This document shows, piece by piece, positions 947 through 34,287 of a stretch of DNA of 34,287 nucleotides (its first letter is position 1; each line of letters opens with the position of its first letter). A model generated the notes under the pieces. That model ran no database searches, was not told the DNA's origin, and saw only the letters and a list, made by a program, of their open reading frames with translations. The DNA lies in contig JAQXJI010000029.1 in the NCBI GenBank assembly GCA_029008615.1, positions 1 through 34,287 of the forward strand, written 5' to 3'. The stretch is from Elusimicrobiota bacterium (lineage in GTDB: Bacteria > Elusimicrobiota > Elusimicrobia > Elusimicrobiales > Elusimicrobiaceae). Both the position numbers and the translations under genes were made by a program.

Positions 947-1534
947 ATGATAATCCCCACCATTATTGAAAAAAACGTAGGTTACGACATATTTTCCCGC
1001 CTGCTTAAAGACAGAATAATCTTTGTAGGCGGAAGAGAAGGCGAAGTCGATACTTCCAGCGCAAATATGATTATCGCCCAGCTGCTTTATTTGGACGCGG
1101 AAGATTCCTCCCGCGAAATTAACCTTTACATCAATTCCCCCGGCGGGCTTGTTACGGCCGGCCTCGCCATTTACGATACTATGCAATACATCAAAGCCCC
1201 TATTACCACCATTTGTATGGGCCAGGCGATGAGCTTCGGCGCGGTGCTTTTGGCCGCAGGTTCAAAAGGCAAAAGATATGCCCTGCCGCACGCAAGAATA
1301 ATGATACACCAACCTTTGATTTGGGGCGGCGGAATTTCCGGGCAGGTAACGGATATAGAAATCGAATCGCGCGAACTTAGGGAAAACAAAGAACATCTGC
1401 TTGATATTCTCGCCCACCATACCGGCCAGGATAAAGAAAAAATCCGCCTCGACAGCGAACGCAACTACTATATGTCCGCACAAGAAGCGAAAGAATACGG
1501 CATAATAGACAAAGTGCTTGAACTTAAAAAATAA
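947..1534 (+). CDS. clpP: ATP-dependent Clp protease proteolytic subunit with a Ser-His-Asn triad
   Basis: This is a 195-residue ClpP (family S14), the usual length, read over its whole length. ClpP forms the tetradecameric cytosolic chamber that degrades substrates fed by ClpX, ClpA or ClpC. The nucleophile is Ser96 (GQAMSFGA, where most ClpPs have GxASM) and the general base is His121 (RIMIHQP). The third triad residue, normally Asp in the ERD motif near the end, is Asn173 (SERNYYMSA; codon AAC at 1463-1465). Listeria ClpP1 is a known natural case of this Asp-to-Asn change. The start at 947 has an AAAGGAG site (936-942). There is no tig or clpX next to it, which fits a second clpP copy transcribed alone. 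Whether another clpP exists elsewhere cannot be seen. Confidence 0.95.
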
Positions 1535-1545
1535 TTTGCCGCTAT

Positions 1546-1583
1546 GGGAATTAGGGCCTATACGAATATAGGACTTAATTCCC
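1546..1583 (+). terminator. Stem-loop after clpP, possible terminator or mRNA end
   Basis: GGGAATTA (1546-1553) pairs with TAATTCCC (1576-1583), and inside it CCTATA pairs with TATAGG around a CGAA loop. The result is a stem of about 16 bp with one mismatch and one G-U pair. It ends 12 bases after the clpP stop but has no T-run, so its role as a terminator is uncertain. Confidence 0.45.
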
Positions 1584-1613
1584 TTGCATATATAATTGCA
1601 TATACCATATAAT
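1584..1613 (+). promoter_or_regulatory. Probable promoter for the 1650 secreted-protein gene
   Basis: TTGCAT (1584-1589) and TATAAT (1608-1613) are 18 bp apart, directly after the preceding stem-loop and about 36 bases before the ATG at 1650. Confidence 0.5.
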
Positions 1614-1649
1614 TAAGTTAAGGCAGTTTAAATTATCTCGGAGAAAACA

Positions 1650-2240
1650 ATGAAACATTTATTACTTGCAGTATTGATTTCTTTCGTATGCGCCAATGCA
1701 TACGCAGCTTCCGCGCCGAAGCCGGAAACGCTCAAATTGAATATGAAGATGACCGCCGCCACTCAGCCCAAACAAAAGGCTAAAACGGTGGAATTCCTAA
1801 GCTACGCTCAATTTACGACAGGCCCGATAAAAGTTCAGCCGAAGCTTAAATTTGCGGGTAAAAAAGCCGTCGTACACTTCTTTAAAATGGACGACGCCCT
1901 CGCTTTCGCCTATGAGGAAAACTCCAAATTCGACAAAATCGAAGTAAAGCTTTCCGCAAAAGACGAAGACCTTTTTAACGGAGATCCGCATCACGTCGTA
2001 CCCGTATACGCGGATATTACCGTATACAAAAACAATAAAATCGCGGAAAAAGGCAGTTTGGAAGTCTTCTCCGTGGAACTCTATGAAATTTGGTCCGCAA
2101 ACAGGCCCGTGGAAATTAACCGCGGCGAAAGTTCTTTCAGAGGAGATCCGCACGACCCTGAAAATTATGCTCCGGTCGAAAACAATAAAAAGAACGATAA
2201 ATCAAATCCCGACCCGTATCACCCGACTTTTTTTGATTAA
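1650..2240 (+). CDS. Secreted protein of unknown function with GDPH/DPYHP motifs
   Basis: I do not recognise this 196-residue protein. It starts with a clear Sec signal peptide (MKHLLLAVLISFVCANAYA, likely cut after AYA). The mature part is Lys-rich and probably beta-rich. A motif recurs: NGDPHH near residue 110, RGDPHDPENY near residue 168, and DPYHP near the C-terminus. The repeated acidic/His pairs could bind a divalent metal, but that is speculation. It has its own promoter, an SD (CGGAG) and a strong downstream terminator, so it is monocistronic. Probably a lineage-specific periplasmic or outer-membrane-associated protein. Confidence 0.8.
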   Translation: MKHLLLAVLISFVCANAYAASAPKPETLKLNMKMTAATQPKQKAKTVEFLSYAQFTTGPIKVQPKLKFAGKKAVVHFFKMDDALAFAYEENSKFDKIEVKLSAKDEDLFNGDPHHVVPVYADITVYKNNKIAEKGSLEVFSVELYEIWSANRPVEINRGESSFRGDPHDPENYAPVENNKKNDKSNPDPYHPTFFD

Positions 2241-2278
2241 TATGTTACTTTTTAATCTTTAATTGTTTTTAACTCAAA

Positions 2279-2304
2279 ATCCCCGGCCAAACCCGGGGAT
2301 TTTT
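2279..2304 (+). terminator. Rho-independent terminator after the 1650-2240 gene
   Basis: ATCCCCGG (2279-2286) pairs with CCGGGGAT (2293-2300) around a 6-nt loop and runs into TTTTT. Confidence 0.85.
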
Positions 2305-2338
2305 ATTTACGGCGAAAGCCCGCACTAAAGCCCACGCC

Positions 2339-2367
2339 TTTCAATAAAAAACAAAATTTGCTATATT
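2339..2367 (+). promoter_or_regulatory. Probable promoter of the portal-protease operon
   Basis: TTTCAA (2339-2344) and TATATT (2362-2367) are 17 bp apart. The predicted transcript starts near 2374, only a few bases before a hairpin that ends in a T-run. Confidence 0.5.
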
Positions 2368-2379
2368 GATTTTGGAGAG

Positions 2380-2405
2380 CCGCTCGTACATTACGGCGGT
2401 TTTTT
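2380..2405 (+). terminator. Promoter-proximal hairpin with T-run (possible attenuator) upstream of the portal gene
   Basis: CCGC-t-CGTA (2380-2388) pairs with TACG-GCGG (2392-2399) around a 3-nt CAT loop with one bulged T. TTTTTT follows at 2400-2405. This looks like an intrinsic terminator, but it sits after the predicted promoter and 24 bases before the portal start codon, not after a gene. It could limit readthrough into the phage genes or only protect the 5' end. Confidence 0.45.
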
Positions 2406-2429
2406 ATTGCCCGCCGCACAAGCGAAATA

Positions 2430-3638
2430 ATGAAAATAATACAAAAACTTATCAAAGGCCTTTCCGCAAAAAGCGGAACCGACGCAGGCGCGGCCCTGCC
2501 GTTGTTTATGGAATATTTCTCCCCCCGTTTGGAGGAAACGAAGCTTCCTTCCCCCTCGGGGCACAATTACGCGCCATACGTTGAAGCCTACGGCGAAAAA
2601 GCTTGGGTTTATGCTTGCGTTAACGTCATAGCGGAAACCGTTTCCGCCGCGGATTTCAACCTTAAGGACAAAAACGGACGCATTATTCCCGCCCATCCGG
2701 CCTTAGAGCTTATGTACCGCCCCAACCGTTTTATGAGCGGGCGTTTCTTAAGACAATGGATAACAGCCAGTTTGGAACTTACAGGCAACGCTTATATTTT
2801 GAAAGACTCCGTACGCGGCGACGGAACCCCGGCGGAACTTTTCCCGCTGCTGAGCCAGCTGGTTGAAGTCATCCCCGGGAAAAACCCTCAAAAACCCGTA
2901 CAAGGTTATAAGTACAGAGCAGGCTCCCAAACAGCTTATTACAGGGCGGAGGAAATTATCCACTTTAAATACTTTAATCCGTTTGATTTCTTTTACGGCC
3001 TTTCGCCGATTGCCGCCGCGCGCAAAGCCGTGGAAACTTTGGATAAAGCCGAAGCTTTCAACCGCGCTTTTTTCGACAATGCCGGCACACTTTCCGGCAT
3101 ATTGCAGACGGAAGGACGCTTGGATGATGCTTCCCGCGCAAGGATAATGAAAGCCTGGAACGACAAATACCAAGGCTCGGCAAAAGCGCATAAAGTGGCG
3201 CTTTTGGAAGGCGGACTTAAATGGCAAAACATATCTTTAAGCCAAAGGGATATGGATTTTATATCAGGCATTAAATTGAACAGAGAAACCATACTTTCAA
3301 TATTCCACGTGCCGCCGGCTTTAGTAGGCCTTTTTGATCACGCTCCGCAGTTCAACACCAAAGAACAGCAGCGCATTTTCTGGCAAACGTGCGTTCACCC
3401 GAAACAAACCTTGATATTGGAAACTTTTACAGAATTTCTTTTGCCGGATTTTGACAAAAGCCGCACGCTTTATTTTGACAAAGACGCCAGTTCCGTAGCC
3501 TGCCTGAAAGAGGATTTGCTGGAGCTTGCACAAGCCGCAAAAATTTACGCCGAAATCGGCTATGACAAAACGCAAATAGCCCAAGCTTTAAACCTGCCAT
3601 TTGCAACGGAAAGGGAAAACGCGGGAGGCAAAAAATGA
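2430..3638 (+). CDS. HK97-family phage portal protein
   Basis: This 402-residue protein matches the HK97-type portal family in length and content. Portals form the dodecameric ring at one capsid vertex through which DNA is packaged and which nucleates capsid assembly. Typical stretches are KAWVYACVNVIAETVSA near residues 55-71, an ELTGNAYI segment, the HFKYFNPFDFFYGLSPIAAA region near 185-200, and the conserved KLNRETILSIFHVPPALVGL followed by FNTKEQQRIFWQTC (about 280-320). The reading frame is complete. The start has no good SD. It overlaps the prohead protease by 4 bp (ATGA). No terminase, capsid, head-tail or tail gene lies on either side, so this is an orphan morphogenesis pair: a prophage remnant or a domesticated module. 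Confidence 0.9.
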   Translation: MKIIQKLIKGLSAKSGTDAGAALPLFMEYFSPRLEETKLPSPSGHNYAPYVEAYGEKAWVYACVNVIAETVSAADFNLKDKNGRIIPAHPALELMYRPNRFMSGRFLRQWITASLELTGNAYILKDSVRGDGTPAELFPLLSQLVEVIPGKNPQKPVQGYKYRAGSQTAYYRAEEIIHFKYFNPFDFFYGLSPIAAARKAVETLDKAEAFNRAFFDNAGTLSGILQTEGRLDDASRARIMKAWNDKYQGSAKAHKVALLEGGLKWQNISLSQRDMDFISGIKLNRETILSIFHVPPALVGLFDHAPQFNTKEQQRIFWQTCVHPKQTLILETFTEFLLPDFDKSRTLYFDKDASSVACLKEDLLELAQAAKIYAEIGYDKTQIAQALNLPFATERENAGGKK

Positions 3639-4228
3639 ACGGCATAAAAATCAAAGGTAACATAAAAAACCCGGCTTTTAAAATAGCCTCTCTTGAGCAA
3701 AGCTCGGTAAAAGAGGAAAACGGACTAATTTTTATAGAAGGCTACGCAAATACGAAAAATTCCGCCGACAGATACGGGGATATCCCCTCCGTACTTATCG
3801 GCAAACGGGACTTTGTATATGAACTGTCTGAGTTTAAAAAGAACCCGGTTCTGCTTATAGACCACGTCAACCGTTTGGATCATTTGGCAGGATCGGTAAC
3901 GGAAATTTTTGAGGACAAAAAAGGCCTTTACTTTAAGGCTTTGTTTTCCTCCTCTTCACACCCCACGGTGGCACACGCCAGGAAACTCTATCAGGAAGGT
4001 CACGCAAAAGGAATAAGTATAGCGGGCAGATTCCATTACGAAGACCCTTCCGCCCCCAATAAACTTACTCTTGCGGAAATATACGAAATCAGCCTGGTCG
4101 CCATACCGGCCGATCCCAACAGTTTGGCCGCACTCAGCCCGGAAAATCCCCCGGACGATGAGGCGGAAAACCGCGAAAAATTGATTAACGCCGAAATCAA
4201 CTCTTGGCTTAAAGACCTTAAAAATTAA
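3635..4228 (+). CDS. HK97-family prohead (capsid maturation) protease
   Basis: This 197-residue protein resembles the U35/S78 prohead proteases that clear scaffold and trim the capsid protein after prohead assembly. It shows the family's early segment IEGYANTKNSADRYGDI, a histidine in LLIDHVNRLDHLAG (His77 is the candidate catalytic His), and GISIAGRF, with Ser128 as candidate nucleophile (families usually read LSIGF here), then LAEIYEISLVAIPADPNSLA. It starts inside the end of the portal gene and is closed by a strong terminator, so nothing else belongs to the operon. The expected partner, a major capsid protein, would normally come next but is missing; a secreted-protein gene follows. Confidence 0.88.
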   Translation: MNGIKIKGNIKNPAFKIASLEQSSVKEENGLIFIEGYANTKNSADRYGDIPSVLIGKRDFVYELSEFKKNPVLLIDHVNRLDHLAGSVTEIFEDKKGLYFKALFSSSSHPTVAHARKLYQEGHAKGISIAGRFHYEDPSAPNKLTLAEIYEISLVAIPADPNSLAALSPENPPDDEAENREKLINAEINSWLKDLKN

Positions 4229-14152: not shown

Positions 14153-14246
14153 GGAGAGGTGGCCGAGAGGCTGAAGGCAACGGTTTGCTAAACCGTCATA
14201 CGGGGGATTTCCCGTATCGAGGGTTCGAATCCCTCCCTCTCCGCCA
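14153..14246 (+). tRNA. tRNA-Ser (anticodon GCU)
   Basis: Acceptor GGAGAGG (14153-14159) pairs with CCTCTCC (14236-14242), with discriminator G and an encoded CCA (14244-14246). The anticodon loop is TTGCTAA (anticodon GCT, reads AGC/AGU). A long variable arm (CATACGGGGGATTTCCCGTATC region) is the mark of tRNA-Ser, and GGTTCGAATCC is the T arm. All elements are intact. Confidence 0.97.
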
Positions 14247-14449: not shown

Positions 14450-15397
14450 ATGATAATCAATACCGGCGGAAGAACGGATACCGTTCAATATTACAGCCAA
14501 TGGCTGCTAAACAGATTTAAAGAGGGTTTTGTTTATACAAGAAATCCTCTGTTTCCGTCTAAAGTTACCCGCTATGAATTAACACCCGATAAAATTGACT
14601 GCATAGTTTTTTGCTCGAAAAACTATGAGCCTGTTTTAGAAAGATTACACGAGATAACAGATAAATTTAACACATATTTCCACTATACGATAACCGCTTA
14701 CGGAACCGATATCGAACCGAGAGTCCCATCCATTGAAAAAAGCATAGAAACTCTTTTAAAGTTGGAAAATATCGTCGGCAAAAACAGAATTGCGTGGCGC
14801 TATGACCCGGTTTTATTGACAGGCAAATATACTATTGATTACCATTTAAAAACTTTTGAAAATATGGCAAAACAATTATCAGGGCACATTGACCGCTGTA
14901 TTTTTAGTTTTGTTGAAATGTATAAAAAACTTTCCGTCAATATGCCGGAATTAAAAGCCATAACGGACGAGCAAAAAACGGCTCTTGCCCGCGGTATGGG
15001 CAAAATCGCTCAAGAATATAATATTCATCTTCAAACCTGTGCAACAAACGGAGATTATACAAGCTTCGGCATTTATCCATCCGGCTGTATGACGCTTGAT
15101 ATTTTAGGTAATGCGAATAATATAAAATTTAAAAAATTAAAACACAAAGGAATGAGGAAACATTGCCATTGTATAGAAGCAAGGGATATCGGAGCCTATG
15201 ACACCTGCCCGAACGGCTGCCGATACTGCTACGCAAATTCAACCCCTAAAAAAGCGATAGAAAACTTTAAGCTGCACAACCCCAATTCCCCGATTTTACT
15301 GGGAAAAATTAAAGAACCCGACATTATTCAGCAAGGCAATCAGAAGAGTTTTCTTGCCGAAGATAAAGATATTTGTCCCGCTTCGGAATTATTTTAG
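14450..15397 (+). CDS. DUF1848 family protein with radical-SAM-like Cys motif
   Basis: This 315-residue protein matches the DUF1848 family in overall content, from VIFNT-like start (MIINTGGRTDTVQYYSQW) through RYDPVLL and the Cys-rich C-terminal part. It has CHCIEARDIGAYDTCPNGCRYCYAN, in which Cys253, Cys257 and Cys260 form CxxxCxxC, the spacing used by radical-SAM enzymes for their 4Fe-4S cluster; Cys239 and Cys241 are additional. The cluster lies near the C-terminus, opposite to classic radical-SAM proteins. The reaction is unknown. The gene follows the tRNA-Ser element, is more AT-rich by eye than its left neighbours, and has only a weak SD (GGGGAAA). Confidence 0.85.
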   Translation: MIINTGGRTDTVQYYSQWLLNRFKEGFVYTRNPLFPSKVTRYELTPDKIDCIVFCSKNYEPVLERLHEITDKFNTYFHYTITAYGTDIEPRVPSIEKSIETLLKLENIVGKNRIAWRYDPVLLTGKYTIDYHLKTFENMAKQLSGHIDRCIFSFVEMYKKLSVNMPELKAITDEQKTALARGMGKIAQEYNIHLQTCATNGDYTSFGIYPSGCMTLDILGNANNIKFKKLKHKGMRKHCHCIEARDIGAYDTCPNGCRYCYANSTPKKAIENFKLHNPNSPILLGKIKEPDIIQQGNQKSFLAEDKDICPASELF

Positions 15398-15474
15398 CTT
15401 ATATAATAATCCGACATATATAATGTGTATTTTAATAAGACAACACTATTTTATAACCCTTTCTTGATTATGTA

Positions 15475-15504
15475 TTTACATTTTCAAAATCCATATTATA
15501 TAAT
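15475..15504 (+). promoter_or_regulatory. Promoter giving a predicted leaderless transcript for the 15511 gene
   Basis: TTTACA (15475-15480) and TATAAT (15499-15504) are 18 bp apart. The ATG at 15511 follows the -10 box after exactly 6 bases, so transcription should start on the A of the start codon. No SD is present. Confidence 0.55.
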
Positions 15505-15510
15505 TAAATT

Positions 15511-16143
15511 ATGAACGAGAAAGCAAACTGCCCCAAAGAAAAGAACCGCTGGGGCGGCAAACGCGAGTGCGCCGGCCGGAAAAAAACCTGCAAGCGGAAA
15601 GTGCCCTTCAACAGGCGTGTTAATGAAGATATTTTAAAAATTTTGCGGAACTATTCGGCAAAGTACGGCATTACGGAAACCGAAGCTTTGGAGAGCGCAA
15701 TTATTTTACAAAGCAATATCGACAAATTAAAAGGAGAAAAAATTATGAAAATTGTAATTCCTTCAAGCAACAATAAATTATGCGGACATTTCGGAAATTG
15801 CGAATATTTTTCTTTCGTGGAAGTAAACAAAGAAACTAAAACCATAATAAATATTGAAAAAAGGATTCCCGAAGAAGGTATTTCCTGCCAAAGTGCAAAC
15901 TGGATAGCTTCCCAAGGGGCAAATATCGTCCTTGCGGGCGGTATGGGGAACAGACCTTTGCAAATTTTTCAGCAAAACGGCGTACAAGTGATAGCGGGCT
16001 GCCCCGAAGTTGAAATAGAAGAAATCGTCCGTCAATATTTGGACGGAAGCATTGTAGCCGGCGAAAACCTTTGCGGCGGAGAACACCATCATTGCCACGG
16101 ACACCACGGCGAAGGCCACCATCAATGCCATAATAACAAATAA
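15511..16143 (+). CDS. Ribbon-helix-helix-like domain fused to NifX/NifB-type (dinitrogenase Fe-Mo cofactor family) domain with His/Cys tail
   Basis: The 210-residue reading frame has three parts. Residues 12-30 are a basic arm (WGGKRECAGRKKTCKRK) and 31-66 fit a ribbon-helix-helix DNA-binding fold (strand, then NEDILKILRNYSAKYG and TETEALESAIIL helices). Residues 79-185 are a NifX/NifB-C-type domain (MKIVIPSSNNKLCGHFGNCEYF...LAGGMGNRPLQIF). Residues 187-210 are a His/Cys-rich metal-binding tail. A second start, Met79 at 15745, has an AAGGAG site 8 bases upstream and would make the stand-alone 132-residue form usual for the family. So either the long form is a fusion sensor-regulator, the internal start gives a second product, or only the short form is real. 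No nif genes are nearby; such proteins in anaerobes often have non-nitrogenase roles. Confidence 0.75.
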   Translation: MNEKANCPKEKNRWGGKRECAGRKKTCKRKVPFNRRVNEDILKILRNYSAKYGITETEALESAIILQSNIDKLKGEKIMKIVIPSSNNKLCGHFGNCEYFSFVEVNKETKTIINIEKRIPEEGISCQSANWIASQGANIVLAGGMGNRPLQIFQQNGVQVIAGCPEVEIEEIVRQYLDGSIVAGENLCGGEHHHCHGHHGEGHHQCHNNK

Positions 16144-16177: not shown

Positions 16178-16207
16178 AAATCCCCCCTGTTATTCCGGGG
16201 GATTTTT
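16178..16207 (+). terminator. Rho-independent terminator after the RHH/NifX-like gene
   Basis: AAATCCCCC (16178-16186) pairs with GGGGGATTT (16197-16205) across a 10-nt loop, followed by further T. Confidence 0.8.
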
Positions 16208-16279: not shown

Positions 16280-16705
16280 ATGAGGAATAGTAATTTTATA
16301 TTACTTTTATCGGTATTATTGTTTTTGAGTGCGAATTTAAACGCCGGCAAGGTTTATTCCGCCTTTGCAGATGTCAAACTCTCCCGTATTATAGACGGAG
16401 ATACCTTTACCGTCGATTTGCCTTGCCGAGACGAAGTTTTCTGCAAAGATATTTCCGTTCGCGTGCGCGGCGTTGATACTCCCGAAATGAAAAGTAAAAA
16501 TATATACAAACGCCAGTCGGCCCTAAAAGCCAAGGAATTTACAAAAAACTTCCTTGAAGCCGGCCAAGTAGATCTTTTAAAATGCGGGCGCGATAAATAC
16601 TTCCGCCTGCTCTGCGATGTTACCTCCGACGGGGAAGACTTGGCCTCAGCCCTCCTTAAAGCCGGCTTGGCGCGCCCATATTTCGGCGGTAAAAAACAGC
16701 AATAA
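16280..16705 (+). CDS. Secreted thermonuclease-like protein (staphylococcal nuclease fold)
   Basis: This 141-residue protein has a signal peptide (NFILLLSVLLFLSANLNA) and one SNase domain. The calcium and catalytic motifs are present: IDGDTF (38-43), the Arg61...Asp66-Thr-Pro-Glu69 block that matches Arg35, Asp40 and Glu43 of the staphylococcal enzyme, and Arg109 in DKYFRLL, matching Arg87. The last helix is short, so the domain is near the lower size limit. It should cut DNA or RNA outside the cytoplasm, for nutrient use or DNA turnover. The gene stands alone after a terminator and converges with the broken DUF3737 gene. Confidence 0.88.
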   Translation: MRNSNFILLLSVLLFLSANLNAGKVYSAFADVKLSRIIDGDTFTVDLPCRDEVFCKDISVRVRGVDTPEMKSKNIYKRQSALKAKEFTKNFLEAGQVDLLKCGRDKYFRLLCDVTSDGEDLASALLKAGLARPYFGGKKQQ

Positions 16706-31331: not shown

Positions 31332-32330
31332 CTACTTTGTAGCTTCTTCAATCGCGACCGCGACCGCAACGCTGGCGCCTACCATAGGGTTGTTGCCCAT
31401 ACCGATAAGGCCCATCATTTCGACGTGGGCGGGAACCGATGAAGAACCCGCAAACTGAGCGTCGCCGTGCATACGGCCCATAGTATCGGTCATACCGTAA
31501 GAAGCGGGACCTGCGGCCATATTGTCCGGGTGAAGAGTTCTGCCGGTACCGCCGCCGGAAGCCACGGAGAAGTATTTTTTACCGTGTTCGGTGGCCCATT
31601 TCTTATAAGTGCCGGCTACCGGGTGCTGGAAGCGGGTGGGGTTGGTGGAGTTGCCGGTAATGGAAACGTCCACATCTTCGTGCCTCATAATCGCTACGCC
31701 TTCGTTTACGTCATCAGCGCCGTAGCATTTTACTTTGGCTTTATCGCCTTCGGAGAAAGCTCTTTCGCTTACAATCGTAAGTTTGCCGGTATAGTAATCG
31801 TAAGAGGTTTCAACAAAAGTAAAACCGTTGATGCGGGATATGATATAAGCCGCGTCTTTACCAAGGCCGTTAAGGATTACTTTAAGCGGTTCTTTTCTTA
31901 CTTTATTGGCGGTTCTGGCGATACCGATTGCGCCTTCAGCGGCGGCAAAAGATTCGTGCCCGGCCAAGAAGCAGAAACATTTGGTGTTTTCGCGCAAAAG
32001 CATAGCGGCCAAATTACCGTGGCCCAAACCGACTTCGCGCTGATCGGCGACGGAGCCGGGTATGCAGAAGCTCTGCAAGCCTACGCCGATTTTTTCGGCG
32101 GCTTCGGCGGCGGTTTTTACTCCGCTTTTAATGGCGATAGCCGCGCCGACGGTATAAGCCCAGACGGCGTTTTCAAAAGCGATGGGCTGAATGCCTTTTA
32201 CGATTTTTTCTACGTCAATGCCCTTGTCGTCGCAAATCTTTTTGGCTTCTTCCAAAGAGGCAATGCCGTTCTCTTTTAAAGCGGCGTTTATTTTATCAAT
32301 TCTTCTTTCATAACCTTCAAATGTAATCAT
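31332..32330 (-). CDS. GGGtGRT protein
   Basis: This 332-residue protein belongs to the family named for its GGGtGRT motif, here SVASGGGTGRTLHPDNMA with Gly259 to Thr265, followed by GMTDTMGRMHGDAQFAGSSSVPAHVEMMGLIGMGNNPMVGASVAVAVAIEEA. The function is not known. Other conserved-looking parts are AGHESFAAAEGAIGIART (about 123-140) and NSTNPTRFQHPVAGTYKKW. It lies 20 bases after the gene for a NifU-like protein, an arrangement I know from clostridia and other anaerobes, so the two probably act together in an Fe-S-linked process. SD GGAGG is present. Confidence 0.85.
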   Translation of the reverse strand: MITFEGYERRIDKINAALKENGIASLEEAKKICDDKGIDVEKIVKGIQPIAFENAVWAYTVGAAIAIKSGVKTAAEAAEKIGVGLQSFCIPGSVADQREVGLGHGNLAAMLLRENTKCFCFLAGHESFAAAEGAIGIARTANKVRKEPLKVILNGLGKDAAYIISRINGFTFVETSYDYYTGKLTIVSERAFSEGDKAKVKCYGADDVNEGVAIMRHEDVDVSITGNSTNPTRFQHPVAGTYKKWATEHGKKYFSVASGGGTGRTLHPDNMAAGPASYGMTDTMGRMHGDAQFAGSSSVPAHVEMMGLIGMGNNPMVGASVAVAVAIEEATK

Positions 32331-32350
32331 ATTATCAATATCCTCCGTGG

Positions 32351-33052
32351 TTACTCTTTGCGCGGGTCAATGGTTTTGACGGCTTCATTGAAGCGGCCGT
32401 AAGAATTGACGTTCTTTTCGAAGGCGGTCTTCGGATCTTCGCCTTTCTTGATGGCTTCCATCATTTTGCCCAAATTTACAAATTTGTAGCCGATGACTTC
32501 ATTGTTTTTATCAAGGCCGATTTCAAGGACGTACCCTTCCGCCATTTCCAAATAGCGGGGGCCTTTGGCTTCGGTGCTGTACATCGTGCCGACTTGGGAG
32601 CGTAAACCTTTGCCCAAATCTTCCATACCGGCGCCGACGGGCAAGCCGTCTTCGGAAAACGCGCTCTGCGTTCTGCCGTAAACGATTTGAAGGAAAAGTT
32701 CCCTCATAGCGGTATTGATAGCGTCGCAGACCAAGTCTGAATTTAACGCTTCAAGAATGGTTTTGCCCGGTAAAATTTCCGCAGCCATAGCGGCGGAATG
32801 CGTCATACCGGAGCAGCCTAAAGTTTCTACCAAAGCTTCTTTGATTACGCCGTTCTTTACGTTAAGCGTAAGTTTGCACGCGCCCTGCTGGGGTGCGCAC
32901 CAGCCCACGCCGTGCGTGAGGCCGCTGATATCTGTAATTTGTTTTGAGTTGACCCATTTTCCTTCTTCAGGGATAGGGGCCGGATTATGTTTTGCGCCTT
33001 TGCAAACGCAGCACATATTATCAACGTGAGGGGTGCATTTTTCGCAGCTCAT
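32351..33052 (-). CDS. NifU-like iron-sulfur cluster scaffold-type protein
   Basis: This 233-residue protein has a NifU-N/IscU-like core with Cys52, Cys59 and Cys80 (GWCAPQQGACKLTLNV...ETLGCSGMTHSAAMAAEIL), preceded by an extra Cys-rich N-terminus (Cys3, 6, 14, 15 and 17; CEKCTPH...MCCVCKGAKHNPAP) that may bind another cluster or metal. The C-terminal half (GPRYLEMAEGYVLEIGLDKNNEVIGYKFVNL) is specific to this subfamily. The Cys spacing differs from that of classic IscU, so a specialised role next to the GGGtGRT protein is more likely than general Fe-S assembly. No iscS/sufS is adjacent. SD GGAG; first gene of the pair. Confidence 0.85.
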   Translation of the reverse strand: MSCEKCTPHVDNMCCVCKGAKHNPAPIPEEGKWVNSKQITDISGLTHGVGWCAPQQGACKLTLNVKNGVIKEALVETLGCSGMTHSAAMAAEILPGKTILEALNSDLVCDAINTAMRELFLQIVYGRTQSAFSEDGLPVGAGMEDLGKGLRSQVGTMYSTEAKGPRYLEMAEGYVLEIGLDKNNEVIGYKFVNLGKMMEAIKKGEDPKTAFEKNVNSYGRFNEAVKTIDPRKE

Positions 33053-33163: not shown

Positions 33164-34287
33164 CTAAATTTTAACGCTAAATTCTTCTATTTTTTCTCTG
33201 ACAGCTTTTACTTCTTCTATATTTATATCCTTCTTTTGGGCCAGTTTAATAGACATTTCTAAATTTTTTATCATATATTCTTTCAACTTTTCTATATTGG
33301 GGGCTTTAGGATTAAAATTTACCTTTCCCCCTTTGAAATCAGCATAGTTATAAATCTTTAAAATACCTTTTAGAAAATCAAATCTGGTATTTTGGGGTTC
33401 ATCGTTAATCAGTACGACAGGTATGCCCATAGCGGTACAAGGGCTGGCGCAATGTAAAGCCGCAGTTATAATCAATTCAGCTTCTTTCTTATATTTATTT
33501 AGCAATGTTTCCGTTTGGGAAAGATAAAAATCCCTATTATAAACATCAAGTCTGTTATTTATGGGGATACATCTTTGATTAACAAAAACACCCTTCTTTA
33601 AAATATCTTTAGGAATATACTTTAAATACTTTTTAGGGACATTAACAATAAAAACCTTTGTTTGGCTTTCTTGCTTTTCACGCAGAGGAAAGGTTAAAGT
33701 TAAACAGCGGCTTAAATAGGCTTTCACCCCTATTTTGCTTAAGAAGTCCCTAGTAAAAGTATCTCGGCAGCCGATTTCTTGATTAGAAAAATAATCAGGA
33801 TTAAATTTTAAAAATCTTACAATACATTCTTGACTGCTTTTGGCAAAATGCGTACCGACCCATATGGGATATATTCTGTTATTAGGCAAAAAGGTTGCCC
33901 CATGAGCAAAAAATCCTTGCATAACACTAAAAGCCAACCGACCGCTATAATTTGAAAGACTGTCCCGGTCTGCAAAAGAATACGCCTTTTGAGGCAGAAT
34001 TTGCTTTAATACCCTTTGCGTCGCCAAAGTTTGGACATAATCGCCAAGATTTATATTTAAATCTTTTTTAGTCAAATCCAGATATTTATAATCAAACAAC
34101 AGATATCGTTCAAAATATCCTTTTAGTTCTGCCGGTTCGGCCATACGCATATTAAAAAGAGCAAATAAAACATCATTTTGTCCGTCAATAAATTTTAAGT
34201 AAGCCCTATCTCTTAAAAAATAGAATTTTTTACCCAGCAGCGTAATTATTTTAAAGTTTTCTTCATTTTTAATATTAAAAATTTTCT
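33164..34287 (-). CDS. Polysaccharide pyruvyl transferase family protein, 5' end outside the window
   Basis: The frame is open from the stop at 33164 to the window end. The first in-frame ATG in the window is at 34150, but the frame upstream (NFKIITLLGKKFYFLRDRAYLKFIDG) reads like the start of a cell-surface-sugar transferase domain, so the gene is truncated. The recognised part resembles CsaB-type pyruvyl transferases: LNINLGDYVQTLATQRVL, GCRDTFTRDFLSKIGVKAYLSRCLTLTFP and ELIITAALHCASPCTAMGIPVVLINDE. These add ketal pyruvate to surface sugars; some relatives have other roles. It is clearly more AT-rich than the rest of the window, as is common for surface polysaccharide genes that move between strains. 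Confidence 0.78.
   Translation of the reverse strand, partial: KIFNIKNEENFKIITLLGKKFYFLRDRAYLKFIDGQNDVLFALFNMRMAEPAELKGYFERYLLFDYKYLDLTKKDLNINLGDYVQTLATQRVLKQILPQKAYSFADRDSLSNYSGRLAFSVMQGFFAHGATFLPNNRIYPIWVGTHFAKSSQECIVRFLKFNPDYFSNQEIGCRDTFTRDFLSKIGVKAYLSRCLTLTFPLREKQESQTKVFIVNVPKKYLKYIPKDILKKGVFVNQRCIPINNRLDVYNRDFYLSQTETLLNKYKKEAELIITAALHCASPCTAMGIPVVLINDEPQNTRFDFLKGILKIYNYADFKGGKVNFNPKAPNIEKLKEYMIKNLEMSIKLAQKKDINIEEVKAVREKIEEFSVKI

Follow-up and report, generated by a model that had tools for sequence, protein, structure and literature searches.

What is known of genes that join a DNA-binding domain to a metal-cluster domain of the NifX type? Proteins of the Nitro_FeMo-Co type are common in anaerobes, and their role is mostly obscure. 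Those that carry a DUF134 domain in front of it are annotated as 'DUF134 domain-containing protein' or as 'NifB/NifX family molybdenum-iron cluster-binding protein', and our search of the literature, which was thin on subscription journals, found no work tying either DUF134 or the ribbon-helix-helix (RHH) domain to a domain of the Nitro_FeMo-Co type. A related principle is familiar from NikR, in which an RHH repressor ends in a nickel-binding domain. For MrpORP, whose C-terminal domain is of the same kind as that of the gene considered here, both domains are reported to bind Fe-S (PMC6345978), which supports the ligand class only. Finally, bacterial genes with a functional internal start are known, such as HrcQ/SctQ of type III secretion (PMC8553256), where one frame gives a long and a C-terminal short product.

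Here, we consider a gene in a contig of 34,287 nucleotides from an Elusimicrobiota bacterium (JAQXJI010000029.1), the whole of which is referred to as the window. In it, an RHH-like region is followed in frame by a NifX-type domain, with a second start codon between the two.

Layout of the fused frame

The gene is a single open frame of 210 codons in the open-reading-frame analysis of the window (Table 1), and its order of parts, a basic arm with an RHH-like region, a dinitrogenase-cofactor-type domain and a His/Cys tail, all in frame, is the one read by the first-pass annotation of this DNA. The C-terminal domain matches Pfam family PF02579 over residues 87-177 with 68.7 bits (cut-off 26.3), and its solved relatives in the PDB are 1o13, 1t3v, PH0822 (2yx6), the orange protein (2wfb) and MTH1175 (1eo1). 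The sole NCBIfam match at E up to 1 is MrpORP (NF041136; residues 60-180, E 1.7e-26), which stays below its cut-off, and no equivalog-level match assigns the protein to the nitrogenase cofactor carriers NifX or NafY in the strict sense.

Table 1. Features of the RHH-like/NifX gene and its flanks in the window
Feature	Position	Strand	Basis
Promoter-like TTTACA-18-TATAAT	15475..15504	+	11 of 12 consensus positions; consensus match alone
Frame for the 210-residue product (RHH-like region, NifX-type domain and His/Cys tail), with a start of the leaderless type	15511..16143	+	Translation, Pfam
RHH-like region, residues ~30-74	15598..15732	+	Sub-threshold RHH_3; helices 35-52 and 56-74; PHROG repressor family, E 0.0042
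Internal Shine-Dalgarno AAAGGAG	15730..15736	+	Sequence, duplex energy; P 0.17 given amino acids
Proposed 132-residue product starting at Met79 (predicted)	15745..16143	+	Sequence; analogy with DUF134-NifX fusions and pairs
Nitro_FeMo-Co (NifX/ORP-type) domain, residues 87-177	15769..16041	+	PF02579, E 5.4e-19; PDB relatives
Cys/His-rich tail	16072..16140	+	Sequence; DUF134-NifX fusions with similar tails
Terminator-like stem-loop with T run	16184..16201	+	3 in region against 1.1 in shuffles

The N-terminal part is more elusive. Residues 1-29 make up the basic arm. Beyond it, the first-pass annotation had seen an RHH domain and proposed structure prediction of residues 1-78; an AlphaFold2 model from the single sequence yields two helices (35-52 and 56-74), with a mean pLDDT of 93-96 over residues 41-70, which is what the helical part of an RHH domain would give. 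The strand of such a domain pairs in the dimer only. A PHROG 'transcriptional repressor' family also matches this part, at E 0.0042. The domain assignment as such stood less well, the RHH_3 match to residues 30-65 remaining under its Pfam cut-off of 21.6 both with residues 1-78 as the query (15.4 bits, E 0.019) and with the whole protein (13 bits, E 0.1). Fold matches of residues 1-78 are weak, with nothing below E 4 in Foldseek (best E 4.1) and a best Z of 3.7; several are RHH proteins, as we take the Rv0298 antitoxin, SvtR, CopG, TacA2 and Arc to be. As no RHH test exceeded its threshold, we name the region RHH-like and not RHH. DUF134 (PF02001) gave no Pfam match at E up to 1, either with residues 1-78 or with the whole protein. 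A model of the full-length protein was set aside for its mean pLDDT of 48.9.

Residues 1-78 are coding-like, and in frame 0 alone. Their codon-usage score is 0.190 in this frame against -0.126 and -0.127 in the other two; the 177 windows of each wrong frame all score lower, and the value corresponds to the 20th percentile of real genes, which average 0.248. An open stretch of 78 codons is expected by chance in 2.4% of cases under a first-order model of that sequence.

Two starts can be discerned. Six bases separate the -10 hexamer from the first ATG, so that a transcript would begin at or beside this codon, which has no Shine-Dalgarno (SD) sequence (duplex energy +1.8). Among the 32 likely genes of the window, those starting at 16280 and 21536 have the same layout, with TATACT or TATAAT six bases upstream of the ATG and no SD; leaderless starts thus seem usual here. 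The second start is Met79, where eight bases separate AAAGGAG from the ATG at 15745, with the AGGAG core beginning at -13 and a duplex energy of -8.7. Both the leaderless full-length start and the strong internal start of the first-pass annotation are supported by this anatomy. At none of 69 other in-frame ATGs, from 12 window genes, does AGGAG or GGAGG occur at SD distance, and folding of the RNA near the internal start is not strong (z 0.77). Given the linker amino acids DKLKGEKI, the chance of such an SD is 0.17, and judged by this gene by itself the internal SD is suggestive only. As to an operator, the region 15398-15520 contains AT-rich inverted repeats, which we judged not meaningful, and no clear candidate.

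Relatives and surroundings of the gene

Does the fusion recur elsewhere? The window gene has no match in 17 genus mates, nor in the other 89 genomes of the family. At the level of the order, matches occur in 44 of 149 genomes, its own included, and among the matches listed all but its own gene begin at residue 67 or later. Over the 340 genomes of the phylum, residues 1 to about 78 find no good match besides their own gene, the three others being partial (E 0.006-0.009); the same residues retrieve just four phage records (archaeal viruses, E 0.1-0.9) and none from plasmids. Protein searches for RHH-NifX relatives gave none in phages and none in viral contigs, and of four plasmid records that matched, those read showed fusion to DUF134, fusion to Mrp or no fusion. 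In a sample of 394 genomes of a Spirochaete class, 167 match the window protein; among the matches listed, the candidates reaching residues 1-60 that were read are DUF134 fusions, carry stops or are spurious extensions. The first-pass annotation had suggested a search for other proteins of this domain order, and among the matches listed or read from family, order, phylum, Spirochaete class, phages, plasmids and viral contigs there is no RHH-NifX relative. The absence from kin genomes marks the window gene as a local acquisition or invention; it also means that conservation of the fusion or of its SD cannot be demonstrated. In a further group, the NifX-type domain stands at the end of long frames (L093, L039 and frames of 415-426 residues in G310, G312, G314-G316, G319 and G320); the two that were read carry an Mrp ATPase and so have the MrpORP layout.

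Immediately upstream lies a gene for a DUF1848 protein (14450-15397) with a C-terminal cysteine motif like that of radical-SAM enzymes, itself preceded by a tRNA-Ser gene (14153-14246). It, too, is without a match in the 17 genus mates, and the two genes may be an acquired pair; direct repeats marking an inserted island were sought near the tRNA-Ser gene, and none was convincing. Elsewhere in the window, a run of phage head genes at 947-4228 (head maturation protease-like, portal and head protein-like) is probably a prophage or its remnant, and at 31332-33052 a GGGtGRT protein (PF14057) adjoins a NifU-like protein (a weak PHROG match), a possible Fe-S gene pair.

Boundary start codons in DUF134-NifX genes

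Since DUF134-NifX analogues are common and no RHH-NifX relative was found, the idea of two starts was tested on these analogues. Fusions of a DUF134 HTH-type domain with a NifX-type domain and a His/Cys tail are found in a Spirochaete (L002), in Bacteroidales, in Clostridia and in Selenomonas, and both Pfam domains (PF02001 and PF02579) were present in all six that were scanned. Of the 394 genomes of L002's class, 118 matched in a profile search at E up to 1e-30. From 57 frames with both domains, 41 remained once identical cores were dropped, and in 40 of these the domain boundary holds a start codon (ATG in 37, GTG in two, TTG in one); L161, which has none there, was excluded. We scored AGGAG or GGAGG at -17 to -5 of this codon, and for the null the linker was recoded at random with synonymous codons, following the codon usage of the gene concerned. 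In genes with more than one eligible ATG, we used that with the stronger SD, a choice answered by the subset with a single eligible ATG.

The internal SD at the DUF134-NifX boundary exceeds the synonymous expectation, at the nucleotide level. It is present in 29 of the 40 distinct fusions against 11.3 expected (P 6e-13), and in 25 of the 32 with one eligible ATG against 8.8; among 148 further in-frame ATGs of these fusions, 11 have it, with 12.2 expected (P 0.74). Related fusions are not independent, which is answered in part by 25 representatives of less than 60% identity, 18 with the core against 6.7 expected (P 3.5e-8). In these, GGA accounts for 19 of the 22 glycine codons in the linker (8.6 expected), and the core is found in all three codon frames, so that conservation at the protein level is no explanation. 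As the criterion had been set after 17 fusions were viewed, the other 23 served as a held-out test, in which 15 have the core against 4.5 expected (P 3.1e-8). The modal position of the core is -13, that of the window gene. In terms of duplex energy, three of the 40 fusions are individually significant and the whole set reaches a z of -5.1; the SD of the internal start is stronger than that of the first start in 28 of 39 scorable fusions, with first starts assigned roughly. The core is missing from 11 fusions, both Bacteroidales ones included, and three of these (L106, L138 and L127) have weaker, AAGGAA-like sites.

The same two domains also occur apart. In the order of the window and in some deeper lineages of the phylum, DUF134 and NifX are adjacent genes. 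Twenty adjacent loci were picked by hand and fetched, one of them proving to be fused and 19 to be pairs, and the counts describe pairs and not genomes: an overlap of four bases is seen in 16 of the 19, and in every one of the 19 the NifX start is preceded by a predicted SD of -5.6 or stronger. In two pairs on enterobacterial plasmids, the overlap is 26 bases and AAGGAG stands ahead of the NifX start. To judge from these sequences, a free NifX-type protein beside a DNA-binding protein is a normal state, and the fused DUF134-NifX genes look like the pair with its frames merged and the internal start retained. The first-pass annotation had counted it against a fused, two-product gene if relatives had their two parts separated by a stop or frameshift. 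Relatives of the NifX part are indeed often two overlapping genes, but these carry DUF134, another DNA-binding domain; moreover, separate genes that have this SD and this start speak in favour of two products and not the reverse.

The DUF134-NifX genes share a further element. RCATATGY occurs within 150 bases upstream of 19 of the 40 fusions, against 0.5 expected, mostly inside palindromes resembling TTATTGRCATATGYCAATAA. The latter is located at L122:1446-1483 and upstream of the fusions in L100, L106, L107, L123, L127, L133, L140 and others, and RCATATGY is found twice before the Klebsiella (enterobacterial) pair. The exact sites TTGACATATGTCAA and TTGGCATATGCCAA, among the sites listed, are at the fusion's own promoter (G706, G631, G664 and G420). 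A wider regulon is not apparent, as counts with one mismatch were no higher than those of a reversed-pattern control in many of 17 genomes. The TTATTGRCATATGYCAATAA palindrome is a likely operator of the DUF134-NifX family. We found no relevant literature on a CATATG operator; a paper on iron in B. thetaiotaomicron names DUF134 once, with no tie to a DUF134-NifX gene in the passage concerned (PMC10434189). The window gene has no CATATG site upstream, the only one in the window being at 33861, as would be expected if its RHH-like domain reads another site.

Possible products and known counterparts

What do these comparisons suggest for the window gene? With moderate confidence, we favour a self-contained regulatory unit for a metal or Fe-S cluster which would also make a free carrier from its internal start. 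The long product, initiated at the leaderless ATG at 15511, would dimerize and act as a repressor, in all probability on its own promoter. Uptake of a metal or cluster by the NifX-type domain and the His/Cys tail would alter the DNA binding of this long form, while AAAGGAG would drive a further initiation at Met79 that frees the same cluster-binding domain as a carrier. The carrier could compete for the cluster, dilute the regulator through mixed dimers or hand clusters on. The gene would in this way work as a DUF134-NifX unit with its DNA-binding part swapped. Both products, DNA binding, autoregulation, metal sensing and the ligand are what we infer for it; pointing to a combination of sensing and carrying are the DNA-binding-type domain in frame, the operator-like site of the analogues and the excess of internal starts. 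If so, annotation gives one product where two may exist.

As no RHH-NifX relatives were found, the main rival is that only the long fused regulator matters, the internal SD being a relic of an absorbed free NifX-type gene and initiation at Met79 minor and functionless. The confinement of the gene to one species among 90 family genomes, by which the fusion may be young, fits this reading, as do an SD that is not significant given its amino acids (P 0.17) and the 11 of 40 DUF134-NifX fusions without a core. In that class, however, the SD has been kept beyond synonymous expectation in 25 diverged representatives, which is not the behaviour of a decaying relic, and free NifX is made in the two-gene state; we regard the relic as rather unlikely. 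The idea of one gene with two proteins, put forward in the first-pass annotation, gains real support from the boundary SD excess in the fusions, the window gene's own SD being suggestive; a regulator and a free carrier are its two probable products.

Less likely still, and in our view improbable, is a short carrier only, with Met79 as the true start and residues 1-78 as an extension that is hardly translated, or a leader that is not translated at all. The contrast between the SD energies of the two starts would suit this, and the N-terminal part is without good relatives. Yet this part is coding-like in one frame alone, is predicted with two confident helices and has weak matches to RHH and phage repressor families, and the promoter is placed exactly for a leaderless start. 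That the SD-like stretch merely slows elongation to let the first domain fold, with no role in initiation, we consider very improbable: it does fall at the junction of two domains, in the window gene as in the fusions, but in the latter it keeps a fixed distance to a start codon (core modal at -13, ATG in 37 of 40), and in the two-gene pairs this SD belongs to a true gene start.

A broader scenario can also be put forward, to which we give somewhat less than even credence. Fusions of DNA-binding domains with NifX/ORP-type domains would have arisen convergently in different bacterial phyla as a class of genes with two products each. In this class, two or more unrelated DNA-binding domains (the DUF134 HTH and the RHH-like one of the window gene) would have been used, and a single frame would encode an autoregulated, cluster-sensing repressor and, from a selected boundary start, a free cluster carrier by which the repressor is titrated or served.

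How, then, does the gene relate to the described systems? HrcQ/SctQ shares with it an internal start, and differs in that its proteins and function are unrelated. NikR offers an analogy in how the protein may work, an RHH region being joined to a metal-binding domain; the window protein is not NikR, as no NikR C-terminal domain appears among the Pfam matches at E up to 1. The MrpORP/ORP/MTH1175-TM1290 family (1o13, 1eo1, 2wfb) resembles the C-terminal domain of the window protein, which is no MrpORP itself, scoring 93.4 bits against the NF041136 cut-off of 450 in its C-terminal part only and having no Mrp ATPase domain. The closest likeness is with the DUF134-NifX fusions: an N-terminal DNA-binding-type domain, a C-terminal NifX-type domain, a His/Cys tail and a start codon with an SD at the boundary. 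From these, the window gene differs in its RHH-like region in place of DUF134, in having no CATATG operator and in the leaderless type of its first start, and what is new here is this replacement of DUF134 by an RHH-like domain.
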